Positions 19,889 through 33,063 of a stretch of 33,158 nt of DNA are shown piece by piece; the stretch's first letter is position 1; each line of letters begins with the position of its first letter. The notes below the pieces were generated by a model, which saw only the letters and a list, made by a program, of their open reading frames with translations, was not told the origin of the DNA and did not search any database. A program made the position numbers and the translations under genes. This DNA is from Propylenella binzhouense (GTDB taxonomy: Bacteria > Pseudomonadota > Alphaproteobacteria > Rhizobiales > Afifellaceae), in NCBI RefSeq assembly GCF_009866965.1, contig NZ_SPKJ01000043.1, forward strand, positions 1-33,158. Direction: 5' to 3'.

Positions 19889-20842
19889 ATGCTCTTCTAC
19901 ATCGTCCGCCGCGTCGTCTACGTGATTCCGATCGCGCTTGCGGTGAGCCTCGTCTGCTTCCTGCTGGTCCACATCGCGCCCGGCGATCCGATCGACGCGA
20001 TGGTGCAGCCCGATACGCCCCAGGAGGTGATCGACCGCGTCCGCAGCGAATACGGCCTCGACCGGCCGCTCCCCGTCCAGTTCGGGCTGTGGCTCGCAAA
20101 GCTCGTCCAGGGCGATTTCGGCACCTCGCTCATCAAGGGCAGGCCCGTGCTGCCGGACCTCGTTTCCGCGAGCGGCGCGACCTTCGTGCTGGCCTGCACG
20201 GGCGGCCTGCTCGGCGTGCTCGCCGGCTGCATCCTCGGCGGAATCGCCGGCGTCTACCGCGAGAGCTGGCTCGACCGCGTGCTCCTCGGCACCGCGGTGG
20301 CCGGCGTCTCCGTGCCCCATTACTGGCTCGGCATGGTGATGGTCATCATCTTCTCGGTGAACCTCAACCTGCTGCCGGCAATGGGATCCGGCCCCGGCGG
20401 ATCGACGGCCTGGGCCTGGGACTGGGCCCATCTCCGCTACCTCATCCTGCCGTCGGTCACGCTGGCGGTGATCCCGGCCGGCATCGTGACGCGCACCGTG
20501 CGCGGGCTCGTCAGCGACATCATCAGCCAGGACTACATCACCACGCTGCGCGGCAAGGGCCTGCGCCGCGCCGGCATCGTCCGGCACGTCGTGCTCAACG
20601 CCGCGCCGACCGTCCTCGCGGTGGTCGGGCTCCAGCTCGCCAACCTGATGGGCGGATCGATCCTCGTCGAGACCGTGTTCGCCTGGCCCGGCACCGGCAT
20701 GATGCTCAACACGGCGATCTTCCAGCGCGACCTTCCGGTGCTGCAGGCGACGACGCTGCTCCTCGCGCTCTTCTTCGTCGTGCTGAACCTCGTCGTCGAC
20801 CTCATCCAGACCGCCATCGACCCACGGATCAGCCGCCGATGA
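19889..20842 (+). CDS. Dipeptide/oligopeptide ABC permease, DppB/OppB-like
   Basis: Inner-membrane permease of 317 residues with six membrane segments. It starts MLFYIVRRVVYVIPIALAV, the usual N-terminus of DppB. It has the periplasmic HIAPGDPIDAMV and LGLDRPLPVQ-like segments, the EAA loop DYITTLRGKGLRRAGIVRHV, and VETVFAWPGTGMMLNTAI near the end. GGAGG lies a few bases before ATG 19889, and there are 11 bases to the preceding ATPase stop. It forms the channel with the DppC-like protein. Confidence 0.95.
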   Translation: MLFYIVRRVVYVIPIALAVSLVCFLLVHIAPGDPIDAMVQPDTPQEVIDRVRSEYGLDRPLPVQFGLWLAKLVQGDFGTSLIKGRPVLPDLVSASGATFVLACTGGLLGVLAGCILGGIAGVYRESWLDRVLLGTAVAGVSVPHYWLGMVMVIIFSVNLNLLPAMGSGPGGSTAWAWDWAHLRYLILPSVTLAVIPAGIVTRTVRGLVSDIISQDYITTLRGKGLRRAGIVRHVVLNAAPTVLAVVGLQLANLMGGSILVETVFAWPGTGMMLNTAIFQRDLPVLQATTLLLALFFVVLNLVVDLIQTAIDPRISRR

Positions 20843-21741
20843 GCACGACATTCGCACCGGAAGTCCTCGGCGCCGCCAAAGCCGCCGCGCGTGCCGGCGG
20901 CCAGGACACCTATTGGCGCGGGGTCGGCCGCAGGCTGCTGCGCGACAGGGTGACCCTCGTCTGCGGGGCGATCCTCGTCGTCATGGCGCTCCTGATCGTG
21001 CTCGCGCCGCTGATCGCGCCCTACGGGCCGACCGACGGCAGCATCGCCCGGCGGCTGAAGCCGATCGGCACGCCGGGCTACCTGCTCGGGACCGACGAGC
21101 TCGGCCGCGACATGCTGAGCCGCCTGCTCTATGGCGGCCGCTTCTCCTGGTTCGTCGGGATCACGCCCGTCGTGCTCGCCTTCTTCATCGGCGGGACGAT
21201 CGGGATCATCGCGGGATTCGCCGGCGGCAAGACCAACATGGCGATCATGCGCGTGACGGACGTGTTCTACGCCTTCCCGTCCGTGCTGCTCGCCGTCGCC
21301 GTGAGCGGCTCGCTCGGCGCCGGCATCCTGAACGCGATCATGTCGCTGACCATCGTCTTCATCCCGCCGATCATCCGCGTCGCGGAGAGCGTGACGACCG
21401 GCGTGCGCAACCTCGACTATGCCGAGGCGGCCCGGGCGACGGGCGCGGGCGCCCGCTCCATCGTGCTCGTGCACGTGCTGCCGAACGTGCTCGGCCCCAT
21501 CTTCATCTATGCCACGAGCCTCGTCGGGGTCTCGATGATCATCGCCTCCGGCCTCTCCTTCCTGGGCCTCGGCATAAAGCCGCCCGACCCGGAATGGGGG
21601 CTGATGCTCAACACGCTGCGGACGGCGATCTACTCGCAGCCGATGATCGCGACGCTGCCGGGCATCTGCATCTTCCTGACCAGCGTCTGCTTCAACTTCG
21701 TGAGCGACGGGCTGCGGACCGCGATGGACGTGCGGGCCTAG
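20839..21741 (+). CDS. Dipeptide/oligopeptide ABC permease, DppC/OppC-like
   Basis: Inner-membrane permease of 300 residues. It has the N-terminal helix of the OppC_N region (LVCGAILVVMALLIVLAPLI), LGTDELGRDMLSRLLYGGR, the EAA loop DYAEAARATGAGARSIVLVH with LPNVLGPIFIY, and the C-terminal GLSFLGLGIKPPDPEWGLML, all standard for DppC. ATG 20839 overlaps the DppB-like stop (ATGA). Confidence 0.95.
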   Translation: MSTTFAPEVLGAAKAAARAGGQDTYWRGVGRRLLRDRVTLVCGAILVVMALLIVLAPLIAPYGPTDGSIARRLKPIGTPGYLLGTDELGRDMLSRLLYGGRFSWFVGITPVVLAFFIGGTIGIIAGFAGGKTNMAIMRVTDVFYAFPSVLLAVAVSGSLGAGILNAIMSLTIVFIPPIIRVAESVTTGVRNLDYAEAARATGAGARSIVLVHVLPNVLGPIFIYATSLVGVSMIIASGLSFLGLGIKPPDPEWGLMLNTLRTAIYSQPMIATLPGICIFLTSVCFNFVSDGLRTAMDVRA

Positions 21742-23399: not shown

Positions 23400-24887
23400 A
23401 TGGACGCGCGCGCCCCATTCCGGGTCGAGGAGGCCTCGGTCGCGGATATCCACGCCGCCTACCGGGCGGGCACCGCCACGGCGCGGAGCGTCACGCAGGC
23501 CTTCCTCGACCGCATCGCGGCCTATGACCGGCGGGGGCCGCAGCTCTGGTCGATCGTGCAGACCAATCCGGATGCGCTGCGCGACGCGGCGGCCCTCGAC
23601 CGCGCCTTCGCCGAAACCGGCGGCTTCGTCGGCCCGCTTCACGGAATCCCGGTGCTCGTCAAGGACAATTACGACGTCGCCGGCCTGCAGACGACCGGCG
23701 GATCCTCCGCGCTTCTCGGCTGGGTGCCGGAGCGGGATTCGACCGCCGTCGCGAAGCTGCGCGCGGCGGGCGCGGTGATCCTCGCCAAGACCACCATGTC
23801 GGAATGGGCGCGCGGCGGCTTCGACAACATCAATTCGGTGCTGCCGACCTTCGCCCGCAATCCCTACAACACGGCGCATGCCACCGGCGGCTCCTCGGGC
23901 GGGACCGGCAGCGGCGTCGCCGCGAGCTTCGGCGTGATGGGCCTCGGCTCCGACACGTTCGGCTCGATCCGCAATCCGTCCTCCAACAACGCCCTCGTCG
24001 GCCTGCGCCCGAGCTGGGCGCTGGTCTCCCGGGCCGGCATGATCGGCCTCTACGACGCCCGCGACACCGCCGGACCGATGGCCCGGACGGTGAGCGACCT
24101 CGTCGCCCTTCTCGACGTCATCGCGGGCGTCGATCCGGCCGATCCGGCGACGCGGGAGGCGGAAGGCAGGATTCCGCCGTCCTATGCCGCCTCGCTCGAT
24201 CCGGACGGGCTGAAGGGCAGGCGCCTCGGCGTGCTCCGCCAGGCCTTCCCGCCGCAGCGCTCCGATCCGCAGGTGCTGGCGCTCCTCGATCGCGCGCTGG
24301 CGGATCTCAGGCGCGCCGGCGCGATCGTGGTCGACCCGTTCGAGATCTCCGGGTTCGACGCCTTTCCGCCGCGGCCGCACCCGCTGAGCGAGGTGCGCGC
24401 CGCCATCGAGCGCTATCTCGCCACCACGGGCCCGGGCTTTCCGAAGAGCCTCGCGGAGGTCGTCGCCGCGGGGACGTTCCACCCGCTGCACGAGGTGAGC
24501 CTGCGCGCCACGGCGACCGCCCCGGCACCGGAAGACGATCCGGTCGTCCACGCGCTCGAAGCGCTCGAGGCGGAGATGCGCGCGGCCTATTCCGAGGCCA
24601 TGGACCGGGCCGGGATCGATGCCTTCGTGCTGCCGGTGGCGAGCTATCCGCCGAAGCTCAACGGCGACCGCAACGTGACGCCGCCGGGCGCCACGACCTG
24701 GATCGCCTCCGGCCTGCACTGGCCGGCGATCGCGGTGCCGATGGGCTACACCTACGAGGACCTGCCCTCGGGGCTGCAGATCGTGGCGCGGCCCTGGAGC
24801 GAGCCGATGCTGATCGCGATGGCCTTCGGCTACGAGCAGGCGACCCGCCACCGCCATCCGCCGTCGACGGTGCCGCCGCTCCAGTGA
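23400..24887 (+). CDS. Peptide-amidase-like amidase
   Basis: A 495-residue amidase-signature enzyme of normal length. The triad is intact: Lys88 in VLVKDNYD, cis-Ser165 in GGSSGGTG, and nucleophile Ser189 in GSDTFGSIR, with 24 residues between the serines. The N-terminus (VADIHAAYRAG, LDRIAAYDRRGPQL, GPLHGIPVLVKDN) and the DTAGPMARTVSD block look most like peptide amidase (Pam), which removes the C-terminal amide of peptides. No signal peptide is present, so it is cytoplasmic here. The start lies one base after the binding-protein stop, and the AtzH-like gene follows 13 bases later. An AtzE-type role is possible from that neighbour, but no AtzG-like subunit is visible. Confidence 0.92.
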   Translation: MDARAPFRVEEASVADIHAAYRAGTATARSVTQAFLDRIAAYDRRGPQLWSIVQTNPDALRDAAALDRAFAETGGFVGPLHGIPVLVKDNYDVAGLQTTGGSSALLGWVPERDSTAVAKLRAAGAVILAKTTMSEWARGGFDNINSVLPTFARNPYNTAHATGGSSGGTGSGVAASFGVMGLGSDTFGSIRNPSSNNALVGLRPSWALVSRAGMIGLYDARDTAGPMARTVSDLVALLDVIAGVDPADPATREAEGRIPPSYAASLDPDGLKGRRLGVLRQAFPPQRSDPQVLALLDRALADLRRAGAIVVDPFEISGFDAFPPRPHPLSEVRAAIERYLATTGPGFPKSLAEVVAAGTFHPLHEVSLRATATAPAPEDDPVVHALEALEAEMRAAYSEAMDRAGIDAFVLPVASYPPKLNGDRNVTPPGATTWIASGLHWPAIAVPMGYTYEDLPSGLQIVARPWSEPMLIAMAFGYEQATRHRHPPSTVPPLQ

Positions 24888-24900
24888 GGACCTGCCCGGG

Positions 24901-25284
24901 ATGATCGAGGAGATCGACAACGAGGAGACGGTCGCCGAGGTGCGCGACTGCTTCCTGCGCTACAACCGTGCGCTCGACGCGGGCGACGTCGACGCGCTCA
25001 ACGGCTTCTTCTGGAATTCGCCCGCCACGGTCCGCTTCGGCCCGGGGGAGACGCTCTTCGGCTACGACGCGATCGCGGGCTTCCGGTCGAACCGGTGGCG
25101 CGGCGCCGGGCCGGCCCGGCGGATCGAGGAGGTCGTCGTCACGGCCTATGGCCGCGACGTCGCGACGACCAACGCCCTCATCCGCAGCGGGAACGGCGCC
25201 CTCAGCCGGCAGTCGCAGACCTGGATCAGGCGGCCGGAGGGCTGGCGGATCGCTGCCGCCCATGTGAGCGCGGCCCCGGCCTGA
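24901..25284 (+). CDS. AtzH-like protein (DUF3225, NTF2 fold)
   Basis: A 127-residue protein of the NTF2-like superfamily, resembling AtzH from the cyanuric acid pathway. From established knowledge, AtzH acts on 1,3-dicarboxyurea to give allophanate, and Tyr22 and Arg46 were reported as needed. Here Tyr21 (CFLRYNRALD) and Arg45 (SPATVRFGPGE) fall at the same places with a one-residue shift. The rest (LFGYDAIAGFRSNR, SRQSQTWIRRPEGWRIAAAHVS) is the usual family ending. It closes the operon after the amidase, a common amidase-AtzH order, though the AtzG partner is missing. It may handle an N-carboxy or ureido product; that is inference. Confidence 0.85.
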   Translation: MIEEIDNEETVAEVRDCFLRYNRALDAGDVDALNGFFWNSPATVRFGPGETLFGYDAIAGFRSNRWRGAGPARRIEEVVVTAYGRDVATTNALIRSGNGALSRQSQTWIRRPEGWRIAAAHVSAAPA

Positions 25285-25332: not shown

Positions 25333-26706
25333 TCACGCGCTTCCTTGCGCCGCTTCGGCCGGAAGCGGCTCGGCCATGCCGGAACTTTCCTGCGCCGCCT
25401 CCCGGGAGCGGGGCGCGATCGCCGCGGTGCTCGCCGTCACGGTGCAGACGCTGCCGATCGTCATGAAGGTGTCGGACACCGCGTCGACCGCGACGAACAG
25501 GATGAAGGCGGCCTCGAACGGAAGCTTGAGATAGCCGCACAGGATCGACATCTGCGTCAGGATCACCAGCCCGGCCATGCCGGAGGTCGTGAGCGCCAGC
25601 AGCGCCGAGGACATTCCGACGAGGACGAGGTCCGGGACCGAAAGGGTCCGGCCGTAGAGCTGCGCGATGAAGAGGACGCCGCTCACATAGAGGAAGATCG
25701 CGCCGGTGCGCAGCAGTGCCGCCTGCAGCGGCGCCAGCAGTTCGACGACGACCTGGTCGAAGTTCAGCCGCTCGACCAGGAGCTCGATGATCCAGGGGAT
25801 CGACGCGACGGTGGAGCGCGTCGTGATCACCACCATCAGGAGCGGCTGGAAGGCCTTGATCGTGGACCAGTAGCCGCGCCCGGACCTCGCCGCGACGATC
25901 GCGATGGAGGCGAGGAAGACGCAGAGGCTCGAAAGCCCCATGACGAGCAGGAAGCCGCCCATCAGCCGGAGCGGCTCCGGCCCCATCGAGGCGATCTGGT
26001 CGGCGATCAGCGCGAAGGTTGCGAGGGGCAGCGCCCAGATGAACCAGTTGGTCAGGATGATGCAGGCCCGGTAGACGGCGTCGAGCCCGCGCGCGAAGCT
26101 CATCGAGGATTGCCGCGGCACCTGCCCGACGGCGAGCCCGAAGAAGATGCAGAAGAGCAGGACCTGGATCGTGTCGCCGCTTGCGAGCGAGCCGAAGACG
26201 TTGCTCGGGACGAGATTGAGGAAGATCGTCAGCGGCCCGGTGGTCTCCTCCGCCTCCGGCGGCGGGGTGAGCGTCAGCTCGAGATCGGTCGAGACGGTGC
26301 CCTGCGCGTTGATGAACTTGCCCAGTTCGATGCGCGACTGGGGATCGTCGATCCGGCCGGGCTCCAGCACCATCGCCAGCGAGCCGCTCAGGGCGACCCC
26401 GACGAAGGAGACGATCAGCACCGCGATGCCGACCCGGCCGAGATATTTCGCGGATTGCGGATCCTGCACCATCGACGTGATCGAGAAGATCACGGAGGAG
26501 ACCAGGAACGGCAGGACTACCATCTTCAGGAGGTTCAGATAGGCGTAGGCGACGGGGCTCAGCGCGTGGGCCGTCGCGGGGAAATGCAGGCCGCAGAGGA
26601 CGCCCGCGCCGATGAGCACGAGGGTCGTGAACGGCGATCTCAGGACGCGCTTCACGATCGCGAGGTGCCTGCGCCCTCCGCCTGCCGAAGATGCCGCCGC
26701 ATTCAT
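25333..26706 (-). CDS. Divergent SDF-family (DctA/GltP-like) carrier lacking canonical cation residues
   Basis: Inner-membrane protein of 457 residues with the hydrophobic pattern of the dicarboxylate/amino acid:cation symporter family. Landmarks align with GltPh: TRSTVASIP (residues 296-304) for hairpin 1, PLQAALLRTGAIFLY (326-340) for the NMDGT helix, TSGMAGLVI (374-382) for hairpin 2, and DAVSDTFMTIGSV (408-420) for helix 8. The NMD motif is replaced by Leu-Arg-Thr, and the GltPh Arg397, Asn401 and Asp405 positions appear as Met415, Ser419 and Val423; Asp408 and Asp412 remain. The Na+ and substrate sites therefore differ from known members. It follows a periplasmic binding protein by three bases, which is unusual for this family. 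Confidence 0.85.
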   Translation of the reverse strand: MNAAASSAGGGRRHLAIVKRVLRSPFTTLVLIGAGVLCGLHFPATAHALSPVAYAYLNLLKMVVLPFLVSSVIFSITSMVQDPQSAKYLGRVGIAVLIVSFVGVALSGSLAMVLEPGRIDDPQSRIELGKFINAQGTVSTDLELTLTPPPEAEETTGPLTIFLNLVPSNVFGSLASGDTIQVLLFCIFFGLAVGQVPRQSSMSFARGLDAVYRACIILTNWFIWALPLATFALIADQIASMGPEPLRLMGGFLLVMGLSSLCVFLASIAIVAARSGRGYWSTIKAFQPLLMVVITTRSTVASIPWIIELLVERLNFDQVVVELLAPLQAALLRTGAIFLYVSGVLFIAQLYGRTLSVPDLVLVGMSSALLALTTSGMAGLVILTQMSILCGYLKLPFEAAFILFVAVDAVSDTFMTIGSVCTVTASTAAIAPRSREAAQESSGMAEPLPAEAAQGSA

Positions 26707-26709
26707 GGC

Positions 26710-27561
26710 CTAGGCACCGCGCTCCGCCATGTAGCGCGCGATGATCTCGTCGGTCTTCATCACCGCGCCGCCCCGCGCCAGGTCGAGGAAGAGGTCGGCG
26801 AACGCCGCGAGGTGGGGCGCATCCGGCCGGATCCCGATCGCCAGCGTGTCGAGGCGGTCGGACAGGGTGATCGAGCGCGCGACCACCGTCATCGACGGGT
26901 CGTCGACGAGGAGCTTCTTGATCTCGAAATCGTCCCGGTAGGCCATGTCGATCTCTTCGGACCGCACGGCCTCCACCATCGACGACCAGTCCGCGAATTC
27001 GCGGATGCGCGCGCCGGGAAAGCTGGTCCGCGCGAACTCGGCGAAGGAGGAATGCGCGATGACGCCGAGGTCGCCCCGGAAGTCGCGGACGACGTCTTCG
27101 GCGGGCCTGCCGCCGGCCAGGCGGGCGAAGCGGACCCGGTTCGTGATCAGCCCGTGATGGAGCGTCGCATAGGGTTGCGAGTAGCGGATGATCCGGCCCC
27201 GCTTCAGGGTCCGGCTCAGCTTGCACACGGCGAGGTCAGTCCGGCCTCGCGCGACCAGTTCGACGGCGGCGTCGAAGGTGTTCGCCGAACGGTCGAAGGC
27301 GAGCTCGACCTCGAGCGCGGCGGCAATCTCGCGGGACATCTCGACGTCGAGGCCGGCATCGCGGCTGCCGGCGGCAGAAAAGAACGGGAGCGACGAGAAG
27401 CCGGGCGTCGCCACCCGCAGCGAGCCTGCATTCAGGATGTCGCGCAGGTCCCGGGTGCCGCGCTCCTGCGCGAAGGCGCGCGGCACCGCAGCCGAGCCCG
27501 CCGCACCCATCAGAAGCGTTCGTCGCGAAAGGCCGATGAGCGTCCTTGCGCCTGCAGTCAT
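26710..27561 (-). CDS. Family-3 (amino-acid-type) periplasmic solute-binding protein, Tat-like signal
   Basis: About 283 residues with the SBP_bac_3 fold: after the signal come LRVATPGFSSLPFFS, GLDVEMSREIAAALEVE, VARGRTDLAVCKLSRTLKR and MVEAVRSEEIDMAYRDD. A twin-arginine-like motif SRRTLLMGA (residues 12-20) precedes a cleavage site near AFAQ at residue 31. ATG 27561 has AGAGGA close upstream. No ABC permease or ATPase is nearby; its only operon partner is the SDF carrier three bases downstream. It is either the receptor of that carrier or a stray ABC receptor. The substrate is likely an amino acid or a small organic acid. Confidence 0.88.
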   Translation of the reverse strand: MTAGARTLIGLSRRTLLMGAAGSAAVPRAFAQERGTRDLRDILNAGSLRVATPGFSSLPFFSAAGSRDAGLDVEMSREIAAALEVELAFDRSANTFDAAVELVARGRTDLAVCKLSRTLKRGRIIRYSQPYATLHHGLITNRVRFARLAGGRPAEDVVRDFRGDLGVIAHSSFAEFARTSFPGARIREFADWSSMVEAVRSEEIDMAYRDDFEIKKLLVDDPSMTVVARSITLSDRLDTLAIGIRPDAPHLAAFADLFLDLARGGAVMKTDEIIARYMAERGA

Positions 27562-30052: not shown

Positions 30053-31024
30053 GTGAGCCTGATCTCGAAGGTCCCGCTCGGGGCCGGAATCGCTGCGGCT
30101 GTGCTCGCTCTCTGCACGGTGGCCTCCGCGCAGGACAAGTACCCGGTCGATACGGTGACGCTCGTCACCCATTCGAGCCCGGGGGGCGGCACCGACGTCT
30201 ATCTCCGCGAGATGGCGCCGCATCTGCAGAAGGTGCTCGGCGCGAACATCGTGGTCGAGAACGTCCGGGGCGGCAGCGGCGCCAAGGCGATGGCCCACGT
30301 CGCGCAGGCGAAGCCGGACGGGTCGGTGCTCTACGGGACGACGCCGAGCTTCGTCAACACGTCGCTGCTCAGCAAGCCGCAGTTCACCTATGCGGATCTC
30401 GAGCCGGTCATGAACATCTTCATGGACCCGCAGGTCGTCTACACGACGACGAAGAGCGAGTACAAGACGCTCGCCGAGCTGGTCGAAGCCGCGAAGGCGA
30501 AGCCCGGGACGATCTCGATCGGCGTGAGCACGCCCGGCTCGCTCGACCGGCAGGTGATGGAACGGCTCAAGAAGCTCACCGGCATCGAGGTCAACATCGC
30601 GACCCATGACGGCGGCGGCGACCTCCTCGTCAACGTGCTCAACGGAACGCTCGCCGCCGGCATCGGCGAAGTGCAGGAGCTGCGCGGCCAGATCCAGGCC
30701 GGGGAGATCCGGCTCATCGCGAGCTATACCGAGAAGCGTCTCGATAACTTCCCCGACGTGCCGACCGCGCGCGAGCAGGGCATCGACCTCGTGGTGCGGA
30801 AGTTCCGCGGCCTGGCCGGGCCCAAGGGCATGCCCGCCGAGGTCTTCGCGGCCTGGGAGAAGGCGATTCCGGCCGTGCTCGACCTCCCCGAGTTCAAGAA
30901 GTGGTACCAGGCGGGCGGCCTGATCCCGACCGTCATGAACCACGAGGAATATGCGAAGTTCATGACGGATTTCGTCGCCGAGCAGAAGCAGTTCTTTGCC
31001 GATTACGGCGTGACCAGCGACTGA
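30053..31024 (+). CDS. tctC: Tripartite tricarboxylate transporter substrate-binding protein (TctC/Bug family)
   Basis: Periplasmic receptor of 323 residues with a Sec signal (about residues 1-25, ending VASAQD). The mature start DTVTLVTHSSPGGGTDVYLR holds the Bug-family PGGGTD loop that binds a carboxylate, followed by VVENVRGGSGAKAMAHVA and the PVMNIFMDPQVVY segment. GTG 30053 has GGAGG seven bases upstream, a better choice than any ATG. The membrane subunits follow directly. Bug proteins bind citrate, tartrate, aspartate, nicotinate, terephthalate and others, so the ligand cannot be told. Confidence 0.95.
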   Translation: MSLISKVPLGAGIAAAVLALCTVASAQDKYPVDTVTLVTHSSPGGGTDVYLREMAPHLQKVLGANIVVENVRGGSGAKAMAHVAQAKPDGSVLYGTTPSFVNTSLLSKPQFTYADLEPVMNIFMDPQVVYTTTKSEYKTLAELVEAAKAKPGTISIGVSTPGSLDRQVMERLKKLTGIEVNIATHDGGGDLLVNVLNGTLAAGIGEVQELRGQIQAGEIRLIASYTEKRLDNFPDVPTAREQGIDLVVRKFRGLAGPKGMPAEVFAAWEKAIPAVLDLPEFKKWYQAGGLIPTVMNHEEYAKFMTDFVAEQKQFFADYGVTSD

Positions 31025-31034
31025 CGCCGGCGCG

Positions 31035-31517
31035 ATGTCGCGCGACTTCTATGTCGGGCTCGTGATCCTGGCCGGCGCCGCCCTCTACTGGACGGCCGCC
31101 GGCAGGATCCCGATCAGCTTCCTCGACGGCGTCGTCACGGCCTCCACGATGCCGCGGACGCTCGCGCTGGTGCTCGGCATGCTCGCGCTCGCGCTGATGG
31201 GGCAGAGCGTGGCCGCCCGGCTCCGGAACAGCCCCGCCGCCCCGGCGGAGGACGGCGAGCGTCCGACCTGGCGGCAGCATGGCCGGGCGCTCGGCATGCT
31301 CGCCATCGGCATCGGCTTCCTCGCGGCCCTGCCGGTGCTCGGCTACGCCCTCTCGGTCGGGCTCCTCCTCGCCGTCGCCGCCTTCTTCAACGGCCGGCAG
31401 CGGCCGCTGCCGCTCCTCGCCTTCGGGCTCCTCGGAGCGATCCTCTTCTACGCGCTCTTCGTGCTCGTGCTCCGCGTGCCGATGCCGGGCGGCGTCTGGC
31501 CGGAGCTTCCGGGATGA
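31035..31517 (+). CDS. tctB: Tripartite tricarboxylate transporter small membrane subunit (TctB)
   Basis: A 160-residue membrane protein with four predicted helices and the TctB pattern FYVGLVILAGAALYWTA at the start, then a positively charged loop and LGYALSVGLLLAVAAFF. It starts 11 bases after the TctC stop and is followed by TctA after 40 bases. The small subunit is poorly conserved in the family, so the call leans on position and topology. Confidence 0.92.
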   Translation: MSRDFYVGLVILAGAALYWTAAGRIPISFLDGVVTASTMPRTLALVLGMLALALMGQSVAARLRNSPAAPAEDGERPTWRQHGRALGMLAIGIGFLAALPVLGYALSVGLLLAVAAFFNGRQRPLPLLAFGLLGAILFYALFVLVLRVPMPGGVWPELPG

Positions 31518-31557
31518 AAGCGGGGCCGGACCGCGGCATAAGCCGGCCTGGCCGGGC

Positions 31558-33063
31558 ATGAACGGGATCGCGCATGCCTGGGCTGCACTCACCGGAACGC
31601 CGGCGGTGTTCGCGGCCTTCGCCGGCGTCGCCTGGGGCATGCTCGGCGGAGCGCTCCCCGGCATCTCGCCCTCGATCGCGATGGCCCTCCTCCTTCCCTT
31701 CACCTACGGCCTCGACCCGATCACCGCCGTCGTGCTGCTCGGCGCGGTCTATGTCGGCGCGGAATATGGCGGCTCGATCCCGGCCATCCTGATCCGCACG
31801 CCCGGGACGAACTCCGCCGCCGCGACCGTTCTCGACGGCTATGCCATGCATCTCCAGGGCAGGGGCGGCGAGGCGCTCGGCCTGTCGCTCATCTCCGGCG
31901 TGATCGGCGGCCTCGCGGGGCTCCTCCTCCTCATCGTGCTGACCGATCCGCTCGCCCGGGTGGCGCTCCTCTTCACGCCGGCCGCCTATTTCGCCCTCGG
32001 CGTCCTCGGCATCAGCGTGATCGCCTCGCTCTCGTCCGGATCGATCGTGAAGGGGCTCATCGCCGGCGTCGTCGGCCTGATGATCGCCACCGTCGGCACG
32101 GACCCGCTCTCCGGCGTCAACCGCTTCACCTTCGGGCGCGCGGAGCTTCTCGGCGGGATCGAGTTCATCCTGGTGATGATCGGCGTCTTCGCGCTGACCG
32201 AGATCTTCACGCAGTCCGGGCTGCCGGACTGGGACAAGTCGCGCGCCCGCGACACGCACATCAAGCTGCCGAGCTGGGCCATGCTGAAGCGCCTCAGGCT
32301 CGCCCTCGGGCTCGGCATCGGCATCGGCACCTTCGAGGGCGTCATGCCTGGCGCGGGCGGCACCATCGCCTCCTTCATGTCCTACAACGAGGCGCGCCGC
32401 TGGTCGAAGCACCCGGAGGAGTTCGGGAAGGGCTCGCCGGAGGGCATCGCCGCGCCGGAGGCCGCGAACAACGTCGTCGCCGGCACCGCGCTCGTCCCGA
32501 CGCTCGCCTTCGGCATACCGGGCTCGAACTCGACCGCCATCCTGCTCGGCGCGCTGATGATCCACGGCCTGGAGCCGGGGCCGCTGCTCCTCTCCAGGAA
32601 TCCGGACGTGGTCTACGGCCTGTTCGGGGGGCTCCTCGTCGCCAACCTCGCGCAGCTCGTGATCGGCATCCTGATCATGACGCCGGCGATCTGGCTCGTG
32701 AACCGGCCGAAGCCCTATCTCCTCGCCGCGATCTACGTGCTCGTCTTCTCCGGCATCTACACGATCGACCACAGCCTGTTCGATCTCGGCATCGTGCTCG
32801 CCGCCGGCGTGCTCGGCTATCTGATGCGCTGGTTCGGCTTCCCGTTCCTGCCGCTCGTGCTCGGCCTCGTGCTCGGCTACATGATCGAGGCGAACTACCG
32901 GCGCGCGCTCGTCATCTCGAACGGCAGCCACAGCGTGTTCCTGCAGGATCCGGTGAGCGCGCTCCTTCTCGGCCTCGCGGCGATCTTCATCCTCGGCTCG
33001 GCATTCCGCGGCTTCCGCGATGCCCGCCGGCGCGGCGCGGCGCGGCGGGAATCGGCGGCATGA
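31558..33063 (+). CDS. tctA: Tripartite tricarboxylate transporter large membrane subunit (TctA)
   Basis: A 501-residue polytopic protein with about twelve membrane segments. Family blocks are GGALPGISPSIAMALLLPFT (about residues 30-49), EYGGSIPAILIRTPGT, VMPGAGGTIASFMSYNEARR, and APEAANNVVAGTALVPTLAF followed by GIPGSNSTA. ATG 31558 was chosen because the domain begins a few residues later and upstream frames are not family-like. It couples by ATGA to the last gene. Confidence 0.95.
   Translation: MNGIAHAWAALTGTPAVFAAFAGVAWGMLGGALPGISPSIAMALLLPFTYGLDPITAVVLLGAVYVGAEYGGSIPAILIRTPGTNSAAATVLDGYAMHLQGRGGEALGLSLISGVIGGLAGLLLLIVLTDPLARVALLFTPAAYFALGVLGISVIASLSSGSIVKGLIAGVVGLMIATVGTDPLSGVNRFTFGRAELLGGIEFILVMIGVFALTEIFTQSGLPDWDKSRARDTHIKLPSWAMLKRLRLALGLGIGIGTFEGVMPGAGGTIASFMSYNEARRWSKHPEEFGKGSPEGIAAPEAANNVVAGTALVPTLAFGIPGSNSTAILLGALMIHGLEPGPLLLSRNPDVVYGLFGGLLVANLAQLVIGILIMTPAIWLVNRPKPYLLAAIYVLVFSGIYTIDHSLFDLGIVLAAGVLGYLMRWFGFPFLPLVLGLVLGYMIEANYRRALVISNGSHSVFLQDPVSALLLGLAAIFILGSAFRGFRDARRRGAARRESAA

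Follow-up and report, generated by a model that had tools for sequence, protein, structure and literature searches.

Secondary transporters that depend on a soluble receptor have been named in print in three forms, TRAP, TTT and TAXI-GltS, the last of them described in 2025 (PMC12344293; this and the other articles cited here are used for the parts of their text available to us), and in the available parts of PMC9602780 and PMC3454389 the receptor users named are only ABC, TRAP and TTT systems. It has been suggested that a feature of the elevator mechanism permits the use of a receptor, an idea that further receptor-dependent classes would test (PMC12344293). The SDF (DAACS) proteins, which include GltPh, GltTk, DctA, GltP and the EAATs, glutamate transporters of the brain (PF00375), serve in textbooks as the example of elevator carriers and as the model of Na+ coupling. 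Here we analyze a stretch of 33,158 nucleotides from Propylenella binzhouense (contig NZ_SPKJ01000043.1; "the window" means this whole stretch), which carries on its minus strand the gene of a family-3 solute-binding receptor (SBP_bac_3) followed by the gene of an SDF carrier with altered Na+-site residues. We lean slightly towards the view that the pair is a two-component, receptor-dependent and sodium-independent SDF elevator carrier for an amino acid. In a preliminary description of this DNA the pair was offered as a possible third kind of receptor-dependent secondary transporter, a place that TAXI-GltS had already taken; if our reading is true, it would be the fourth system after TRAP, TTT and TAXI-GltS, and it would supply the test mentioned above in an elevator fold that is well understood.

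The pair resembles TAXI-GltS in that the gene of a soluble receptor is linked to that of an elevator-type secondary carrier outside the TRAP and TTT systems; in contrast, a TAXI receptor goes there with GltS (ESS), while here SBP_bac_3 goes with SDF (PMC12344293). TRAP and TTT systems likewise combine a receptor with a secondary carrier, but their receptor and membrane families are others, and in place of DctQ/DctM or TctB/TctA the carrier here is an SDF protein only. With the SDF family the likeness lies in the profile, the predicted fold and the alignment of hairpins (HP) and transmembrane helices (TM), where HP1, TM7, HP2 and TM8 correspond, the match to GltPh through the hairpins having been seen in the preliminary description; the group to which the window carrier belongs differs in having no equivalent of Asp312 or Asp405, an Arg at position 311, a longer TM3-TM4 loop and a gene paired with that of a receptor. 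An uncoupled SDF clade of Bacillota (Ext-Int) also lacks Na+ and H+ signatures and is often found beside genes of amino-acid enzymes; in contrast to our group its ancestor kept the Na+ residues and no receptor is mentioned in the available part of the article, a distinction drawn by description only (PMC12668577).

The receptor TAG and the carrier ATG are separated by three bases (26707-26709), and both open reading frames (ORFs) were found where the preliminary description had placed them. The scores of the two proteins (Table 1) compare with cut-offs of 27.9 bits for PF00375, which is the only Pfam match of the carrier at E <= 0.001, and of 26.4 bits for PF00497 in the receptor, which also has a weak match to PF10613. 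Relatives were fetched by the carrier sequence alone, and scanning genome contigs yielded 73 loci. (The loci of all searches are numbered with the prefix L; L151, from the phylum sample below, is the window itself, and L128 and L132 share their contigs with L051 and L052.) At every one of the 73 the gene immediately before the carrier, in the same orientation, encodes an SBP_bac_3 homologue, so the condition that would have sunk the preliminary proposal, a pair not conserved in other genomes, does not hold. Among plasmids, where 419 records matched and 30 of them were listed, the receptor was present in the four examined records with this carrier type.

Samples of wider taxonomic scope gave a similar picture. 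A search of 385 genomes of the class (E <= 1e-22) listed 29 carriers, 19 of the receptor-linked group and 10 canonical, and 17 of the 19 are linked to a receptor: in seven it is directly upstream, in eight it is separated from the carrier by a cyclase ORF only, in one the two genes diverge, and in one two receptor genes follow the carrier. The two unlinked carriers are L029, at a contig edge, and L042. By gene linkage, then, in 73/73 fetched loci and 17/19 carriers of the class sample, the pair falls in with receptor-dependent secondary transporters. In the phylum sample (398 genomes, best 30 loci opened) a receptor accompanies eight of nine carriers of this type, one of the eight being the window; the ninth, L155, starts at the end of its contig. 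The search was also run in reverse, with the receptor profile A5 against the same 385 genomes and at most six candidates scored per genome. At E <= 1e-40 there were 20 matches, spread over 17 genomes, the same 17 that hold the carrier group; for 12 of these the result is by construction, because they contributed rows to the profile, and the information lies in the other 368 genomes, not one of which matches at this threshold. Eighteen of the 20 matches share a contig with a carrier (the exceptions are G304:C289 and G411:C9).

Canonical SDF genes, defined here by Asn310, served as the control. There were 28 Asn310-bearing rows, not all with a complete NMDGT motif (Asp312 stands in 21 of them); one, L031, reads N-Q-H-G and adjoins receptors, and its exclusion left 27 canonical loci from the other searches. 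Together with 21 from the phylum sample, less one counted twice (L162 = L041), they make 47 distinct loci, and with the same receptor profile, applied mostly to 1.5 kb on each side, a soluble receptor was found beside none of them. The pair is more than a chance neighborhood: a receptor accompanies the carrier at all 73 fetched loci, and a soluble one at none of the 47 canonical loci. L005 was considered as a canonical SDF with a receptor and rejected, given that its neighbor carries ion-channel domains too and is GluR0-like. This neighbor scored 46.9 bits, and therefore the receptor profile detects distant members. At this locus the gene of a GluR0-like ligand-gated channel (L005:2796-4037, plus strand; SBP_bac_3, Ion_trans_2 and Lig_chan domains) immediately follows that of a canonical NMDGT-type SDF, so that a glutamate channel adjoins a glutamate-type carrier.

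For the residues we use GltPh position numbers, assigned by motif. In the window carrier Leu332-Arg333-Thr334-Gly335 aligns with N-M-D-G of NMDGT, and Met415, Ser419 and Val423 occupy positions 397, 401 and 405, with the equivalents of Asp390 and Asp394 kept; these substitutions had been called correctly before. The carriers were divided into two groups of rows, 145 and 28, by the Asn310 column, and the absence of Asn310 in the 145 is thus a matter of definition; identical domains, three SDF fragments shorter than 300 residues and rows with runs of X were omitted from the residue and loop counts. None of the 145 has Asp at 312 or 405, and 140 have Arg (131) or Lys (9) at 311. Position 390 is Asp or Glu in 144/145 and position 394 in 128/145. 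Arg is kept at 397 in 133/145, so the loss of Arg397, true of the window, does not extend to the group; Met at this position occurs in no carriers but those of the window and its nearest relatives, L071 (a Mesorhizobium metagenome-assembled genome), L072 and L073 (Kaistia), L074 (Bosea sp. 117), L152 and L153. In the 28 Asn310-bearing rows Arg311 occurs once and position 405 is Asn in 14, and for this reason the loss of Asp405, also true of the window, is not diagnostic. Judged from the alignment, the group is marked by the loss of Asp312, the usual loss of Asn310 and, usually, Arg or Lys at 311. Published signatures are N310, M/S311, D/E312 and D/E405 for Na+ carriers, and L311 and N405 for H+ carriers (PMC12668577). 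Neither is found in the window carrier, which has Leu332, Arg333, Thr334 and Val423 at the Na+ positions, and Arg333 and Val423 at the H+ positions; around positions 92-93 (the Na3 residues Thr92/Ser93) the alignment did not resolve.

The TM3-TM4 loop separates the two groups as well, with 44-55 residues in 143 of the 145 rows lacking Asn310 versus 21-44 in the 27 canonical rows. In a tree of 100 rows, obtained by a quick method whose supports need care, a branch with SH-aLRT 99 separates the 28 canonical rows from the rest, except for the second SDF of L047, which has a very long branch and falls beside the canonical side. Three receptor-linked rows that keep Asn310 fall inside the carrier group, and the idea that they represent an early stage was dropped for this reason.

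The AlphaFold2 model of the carrier (pLDDT 88.6, pTM 0.87) superposes on ASCT2 (8qrs; Z 40.8, root-mean-square deviation 2.8, 378 residues) and on GltPh (6uwl; Z 40.2, deviation 2.9, 382 residues), with ASCT2 and EAAT3 tied; in its predicted structure the carrier keeps the elevator fold of GltPh. The receptor model (pLDDT 91.4) has 3k4u as its best match (Z 22.9, deviation 3.2, 229 residues), and amino-acid receptors and cyclohexadienyl dehydratases tie among the best structural matches. Its profile match to PF00497 and its receptor fold place it with the family-3 solute-binding proteins. In this family the residues corresponding to Arg121 and Asp210 bind the alpha-carboxylate and the amino group of the ligand; both are conserved here (Table 1), and the ligand proposed for the receptor is an amino acid. 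The twin-arginine signal noted in the preliminary description is present, and export by that route would follow from it; a twin-Arg also occurs in the six nearest relatives (L071-L076), and over 84 receptors a twin-Arg pattern was counted in 18 and a lipobox-like one in three. In comparisons with six relatives the ratio of nonsynonymous to synonymous substitutions (dN/dS) ranges from 0.21 to 0.57 in the carrier and from 0.27 to 0.46 in the receptor; by this measure the pair is under purifying selection.

Table 1. Positions in the window of the receptor and carrier genes and of their main parts
Feature	Position	Strand	Size, score or basis
SBP_bac_3 periplasmic receptor	26710..27561	(-)	283 aa; PF00497 45.7 bits; predicted model
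Twin-Arg signal motif SRRTLL, receptor residues 12-17	27511..27528	(-)	sequence; putative Tat export
Receptor Arg121 of TxxR motif	27199..27201	(-)	kept in 99/101 receptor rows; nearly invariant in receptor profile A5
Receptor Asp210 of YRD(D/E) motif	26932..26934	(-)	kept in 94/101 receptor rows
SDF-family carrier	25333..26706	(-)	457 aa; PF00375 178.8 bits; predicted model
Longer TM3-TM4 loop of the carrier (residues 116-167), where the receptor might dock	26206..26361	(-)	loop-length comparison
Carrier HP1 tip TTRSTVASIP, residues 295-304	25795..25824	(-)	aligned with Ser-rich HP1 of canonical SDFs
Carrier L332-R333-T334-G335-A336 replacing NMDGT; Arg333 at Met311 position	25699..25713	(-)	alignment
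Carrier TM8 stretch D408-V423	25438..25485	(-)	Asp390/Asp394 equivalents kept; Met415/Ser419/Val423 at 397/401/405

In the mechanism that we propose, the SBP_bac_3 receptor would capture an amino acid in the periplasm and deliver it to the SDF elevator, the hand-over taking place perhaps via the lengthened TM3-TM4 loop. The elevator would work without side chains that hold Na+ at Na1 and Na3, and the Arg that stands in the place of Met311 may, by its fixed charge, substitute for the bound cation; a fixed Arg or Lys replaces a cation in carriers of other folds, such as CaiT and ApcT. With these side chains lost and the Arg in place, transport should not require Na+. In GltPh, Met311 moves adjacent to the substrate upon Na+ binding, and for uncoupled SDFs, which exist and tend to adjoin genes of amino-acid enzymes, it has been proposed that uptake is driven by the use of the substrate (PMC12668577). 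The direction of transport would similarly come from the affinity of the receptor together with intracellular use of the substrate, the latter suggested because a racemase gene adjoins the carrier in most of the fetched relatives. The group also offers a natural experiment on the replacement of Na+ after the loss of its ligands.

The racemase is beside the carrier at 52/73 loci, a second SDF gene follows at 52/73, and both are present at 40/73. All four racemases tested pass the NCBIfam cut-offs for the cysteate racemase CuyB and for the amino acid (aspartate) racemase subfamily (asp_race). Because of these matches, and because Arg397 and Asp394 are kept, the substrate for most of the group is likely aspartate- or cysteate-like. 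In the subclade of the window, where Arg397 has become Met, the specificity may have shifted to a substrate that is no longer acidic, or Arg333 may have replaced Arg397. The second SDF is strongly diverged (L044-L047, L079-L131 and others); most share a G-x-R-N motif in TM8, with Asn at 398 in 51 rows, and its presence raises the question of mixed trimers.

Several observations weigh against this proposal. One carrier of the group, L042, has no receptor beside it, and receptor-linked SDFs that keep Asn310 exist (the second SDF of L154 and that of L156, N-R-H-G, and L031, N-Q-H-G). The substrate assignment is weakest for the window itself, because its Arg397 is absent and its racemases lie elsewhere in the genome: no racemase is beside the pair, and five PF01177 matches are on other contigs. 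The Na2 site may survive in the carrier, and the cyclase and secretion genes described below point to signalling too. Finally, no receptor-carrier fusion, which the preliminary description had suggested looking for, was found among the ORFs searched, while fusions are known for TAXI-GltS (PMC12344293). Two long frames were discarded as fusion candidates: that of 947 residues in L012 consists of a canonical SDF preceded by an open stretch, and that of 726 residues in L150 ends in an SDF domain and shows no other, its receptor being encoded in an ORF apart. As to the Asn310 keepers, those linked to a receptor have His at 312, and L154 holds two SDFs, at 63-1370 and 1387-2787.

The best surviving alternative, which we consider unlikely while giving it real weight, is that the pair is a sensor or transceptor: the loaded receptor would alter the state of the SDF protein, which would be read by a partner with little or no net transport. 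The loss of the cation residues is compatible with this, and candidate partners are encoded nearby. A gene for a protein with dCache and class III cyclase domains is close to the pair at 13 distinct loci (L053, L054, L056-L059, L061, L062, L064, L078, L128, L132 and L133), with the cyclase domains confirmed by Pfam in seven (L053, L056, L059, L064, L078, L128 and L133); at nine of the 13, in small alphaproteobacterial genomes, the cyclase gene is within the receptor and SDF stretch. No cyclase profile match was found at the canonical SDF loci, whose flanks are short. A precedent is the DctA/DcuS unit of Escherichia coli, in which an SDF protein is linked to a membrane sensor and DctA co-regulates the sensor kinase DcuS (PMC4280142); here the neighbor, at the 13 loci, is the dCache cyclase. 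In contrast, DctA is an active canonical transporter that works with a histidine kinase, and its unit involves no receptor. In Burkholderiales the partner could be the control of the type VI secretion system (T6SS). T6SS genes are in the same fetched stretch at 49/73 loci, all of them recorded as betaproteobacterial, and at 45 they lie on both sides of the module on the same strand; a gene-by-gene check of L091 gave the order ClpV, VgrG, MORN, receptor, SDF, racemase, SDF, TssK, TssL, TssM.

On the other side, a racemase beside the carrier at 52 of the 73 loci suggests that the substrate enters the cell, the residues of the substrate site are largely kept, and there is no signalling gene beside the window pair; the cyclase query gave zero matches in the window genome at E <= 0.001, in a search run without a positive control. 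No T6SS match was found in L001 (the 4.4 kb round the window pair) or in L051-L070, the remaining window not having been searched for T6SS. A broader formulation, also unlikely, is that of a transceptor module in which an SDF protein that has given up Na+ coupling for a fixed Arg is gated by the loaded receptor and relays the extracellular amino-acid state, with or without net transport, its output being type VI secretion in Burkholderiales and, in certain lineages, the synthesis of cAMP or cGMP; if this is so, the amino acids sensed could be those from lysed neighbors. The cyclase and type VI neighbors hint at an unexplored link from amino-acid capture to signalling or attack.

We regard as improbable that the pair is a receptor-dependent carrier still driven by ions, either H+ or Na+ at a surviving Na2 site. 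The receptor pairing itself agrees with it as well, and the ligands of Na2 in GltPh are mostly backbone atoms, invisible in sequence comparisons. TRAP and TAXI-GltS use Na+ (PMC12344293); against an ion-driven carrier stands the window protein, which has neither the Na+ nor the H+ published signature. The last alternative, chance neighborhood of an orphan ABC receptor or a periplasmic cyclohexadienyl dehydratase-like enzyme with a decaying SDF gene, is rejected as very improbable, for although the receptor fold is common to many ABC receptors and dehydratases, the receptor is constant at the group loci and lacking at the canonical ones, the genes are under purifying selection, the carrier fold is predicted with high confidence and the amino-acid-binding residues are kept.

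Compared with the literature, the combination of a receptor with an SDF carrier that has lost the Na+ residues appears new, while both families and the general kind, receptor plus secondary carrier, are known. No paper on an SBP-SDF pair was found in open-licence full text, subscription papers and databases such as TCDB being outside the search. In the legend of Figure 6 of PMC2950845 the SDF InterPro domain is included in a domain network of 100 glutamate-receptor-like sequences; a protein with both receptor and SDF domains may thus have been tabulated in 2010, in a section that does not discuss it. Public annotation hides the pairing: in Gemmobacter the two genes are called "cation:dicarboxylase symporter family transporter" and "transporter substrate-binding domain-containing protein".

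Where the module is associated with T6SS genes, receptor, SDF, in some cases racemase, and second SDF lie inside Burkholderiales T6SS clusters between VgrG/MORN and TssK (e.g. L091, L087, L139 and L046), and this is also the case for the plasmid loci L044-L046. The published T6SS-b cluster on pBPHY01 of the legume symbiont Paraburkholderia phymatum (510771-535444) encloses L046 (520051-529232); T6SS clusters are reported to contain several ORFs of unknown function, and the words "racemase" and "symporter" are absent from the available text of that article (PMC5732942). Operon-like triplets of receptor, dCache/class III cyclase and SDF are found in L053, L054, L057-L059, L061, L062 and L064, in alphaproteobacterial genomes of 0.8-1.6 Mb. 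As a guide to the substrate, the wider neighborhoods of L071, L072, L074-L076 and L078 gave mixed genes, and the 20 ORFs tested there showed no common pathway. The viral structure library held no match at E <= 0.001, and 20 phage records had weak matches, five of which were listed.

The carrier is the sole SDF match in its genome (E <= 0.001), and none of 10 searched genomes of the same family has one at E <= 1e-10, which makes the gene patchy in distribution. One flank of the pair holds an AtzH-like gene (24901-25284, plus strand) and an amidase gene, and the other a short-chain dehydrogenase and MmgE/PrpD. Since the immediate neighbors are the AtzH-like and dehydrogenase genes, the receptor is not encoded with the permease and ATPase of an ABC importer; the earlier statement that no ABC permease is around stands for the operon; in the surroundings, permease-like ORFs (19889-21741, plus strand; judged by eye) lie about 3.6 kb from the pair, adjoining an SBP_bac_5 gene. 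The amidase and AtzH-like genes (23400-25284, plus strand), beside dipeptide-type ABC genes, resemble a catabolic cluster. Further along, a TctC-type receptor (PF03401; 30053-31024, plus strand) is followed by TctB- and TctA-like ORFs, recognized by eye, which form a separate, ordinary TTT system at 30053-33063 of the window.

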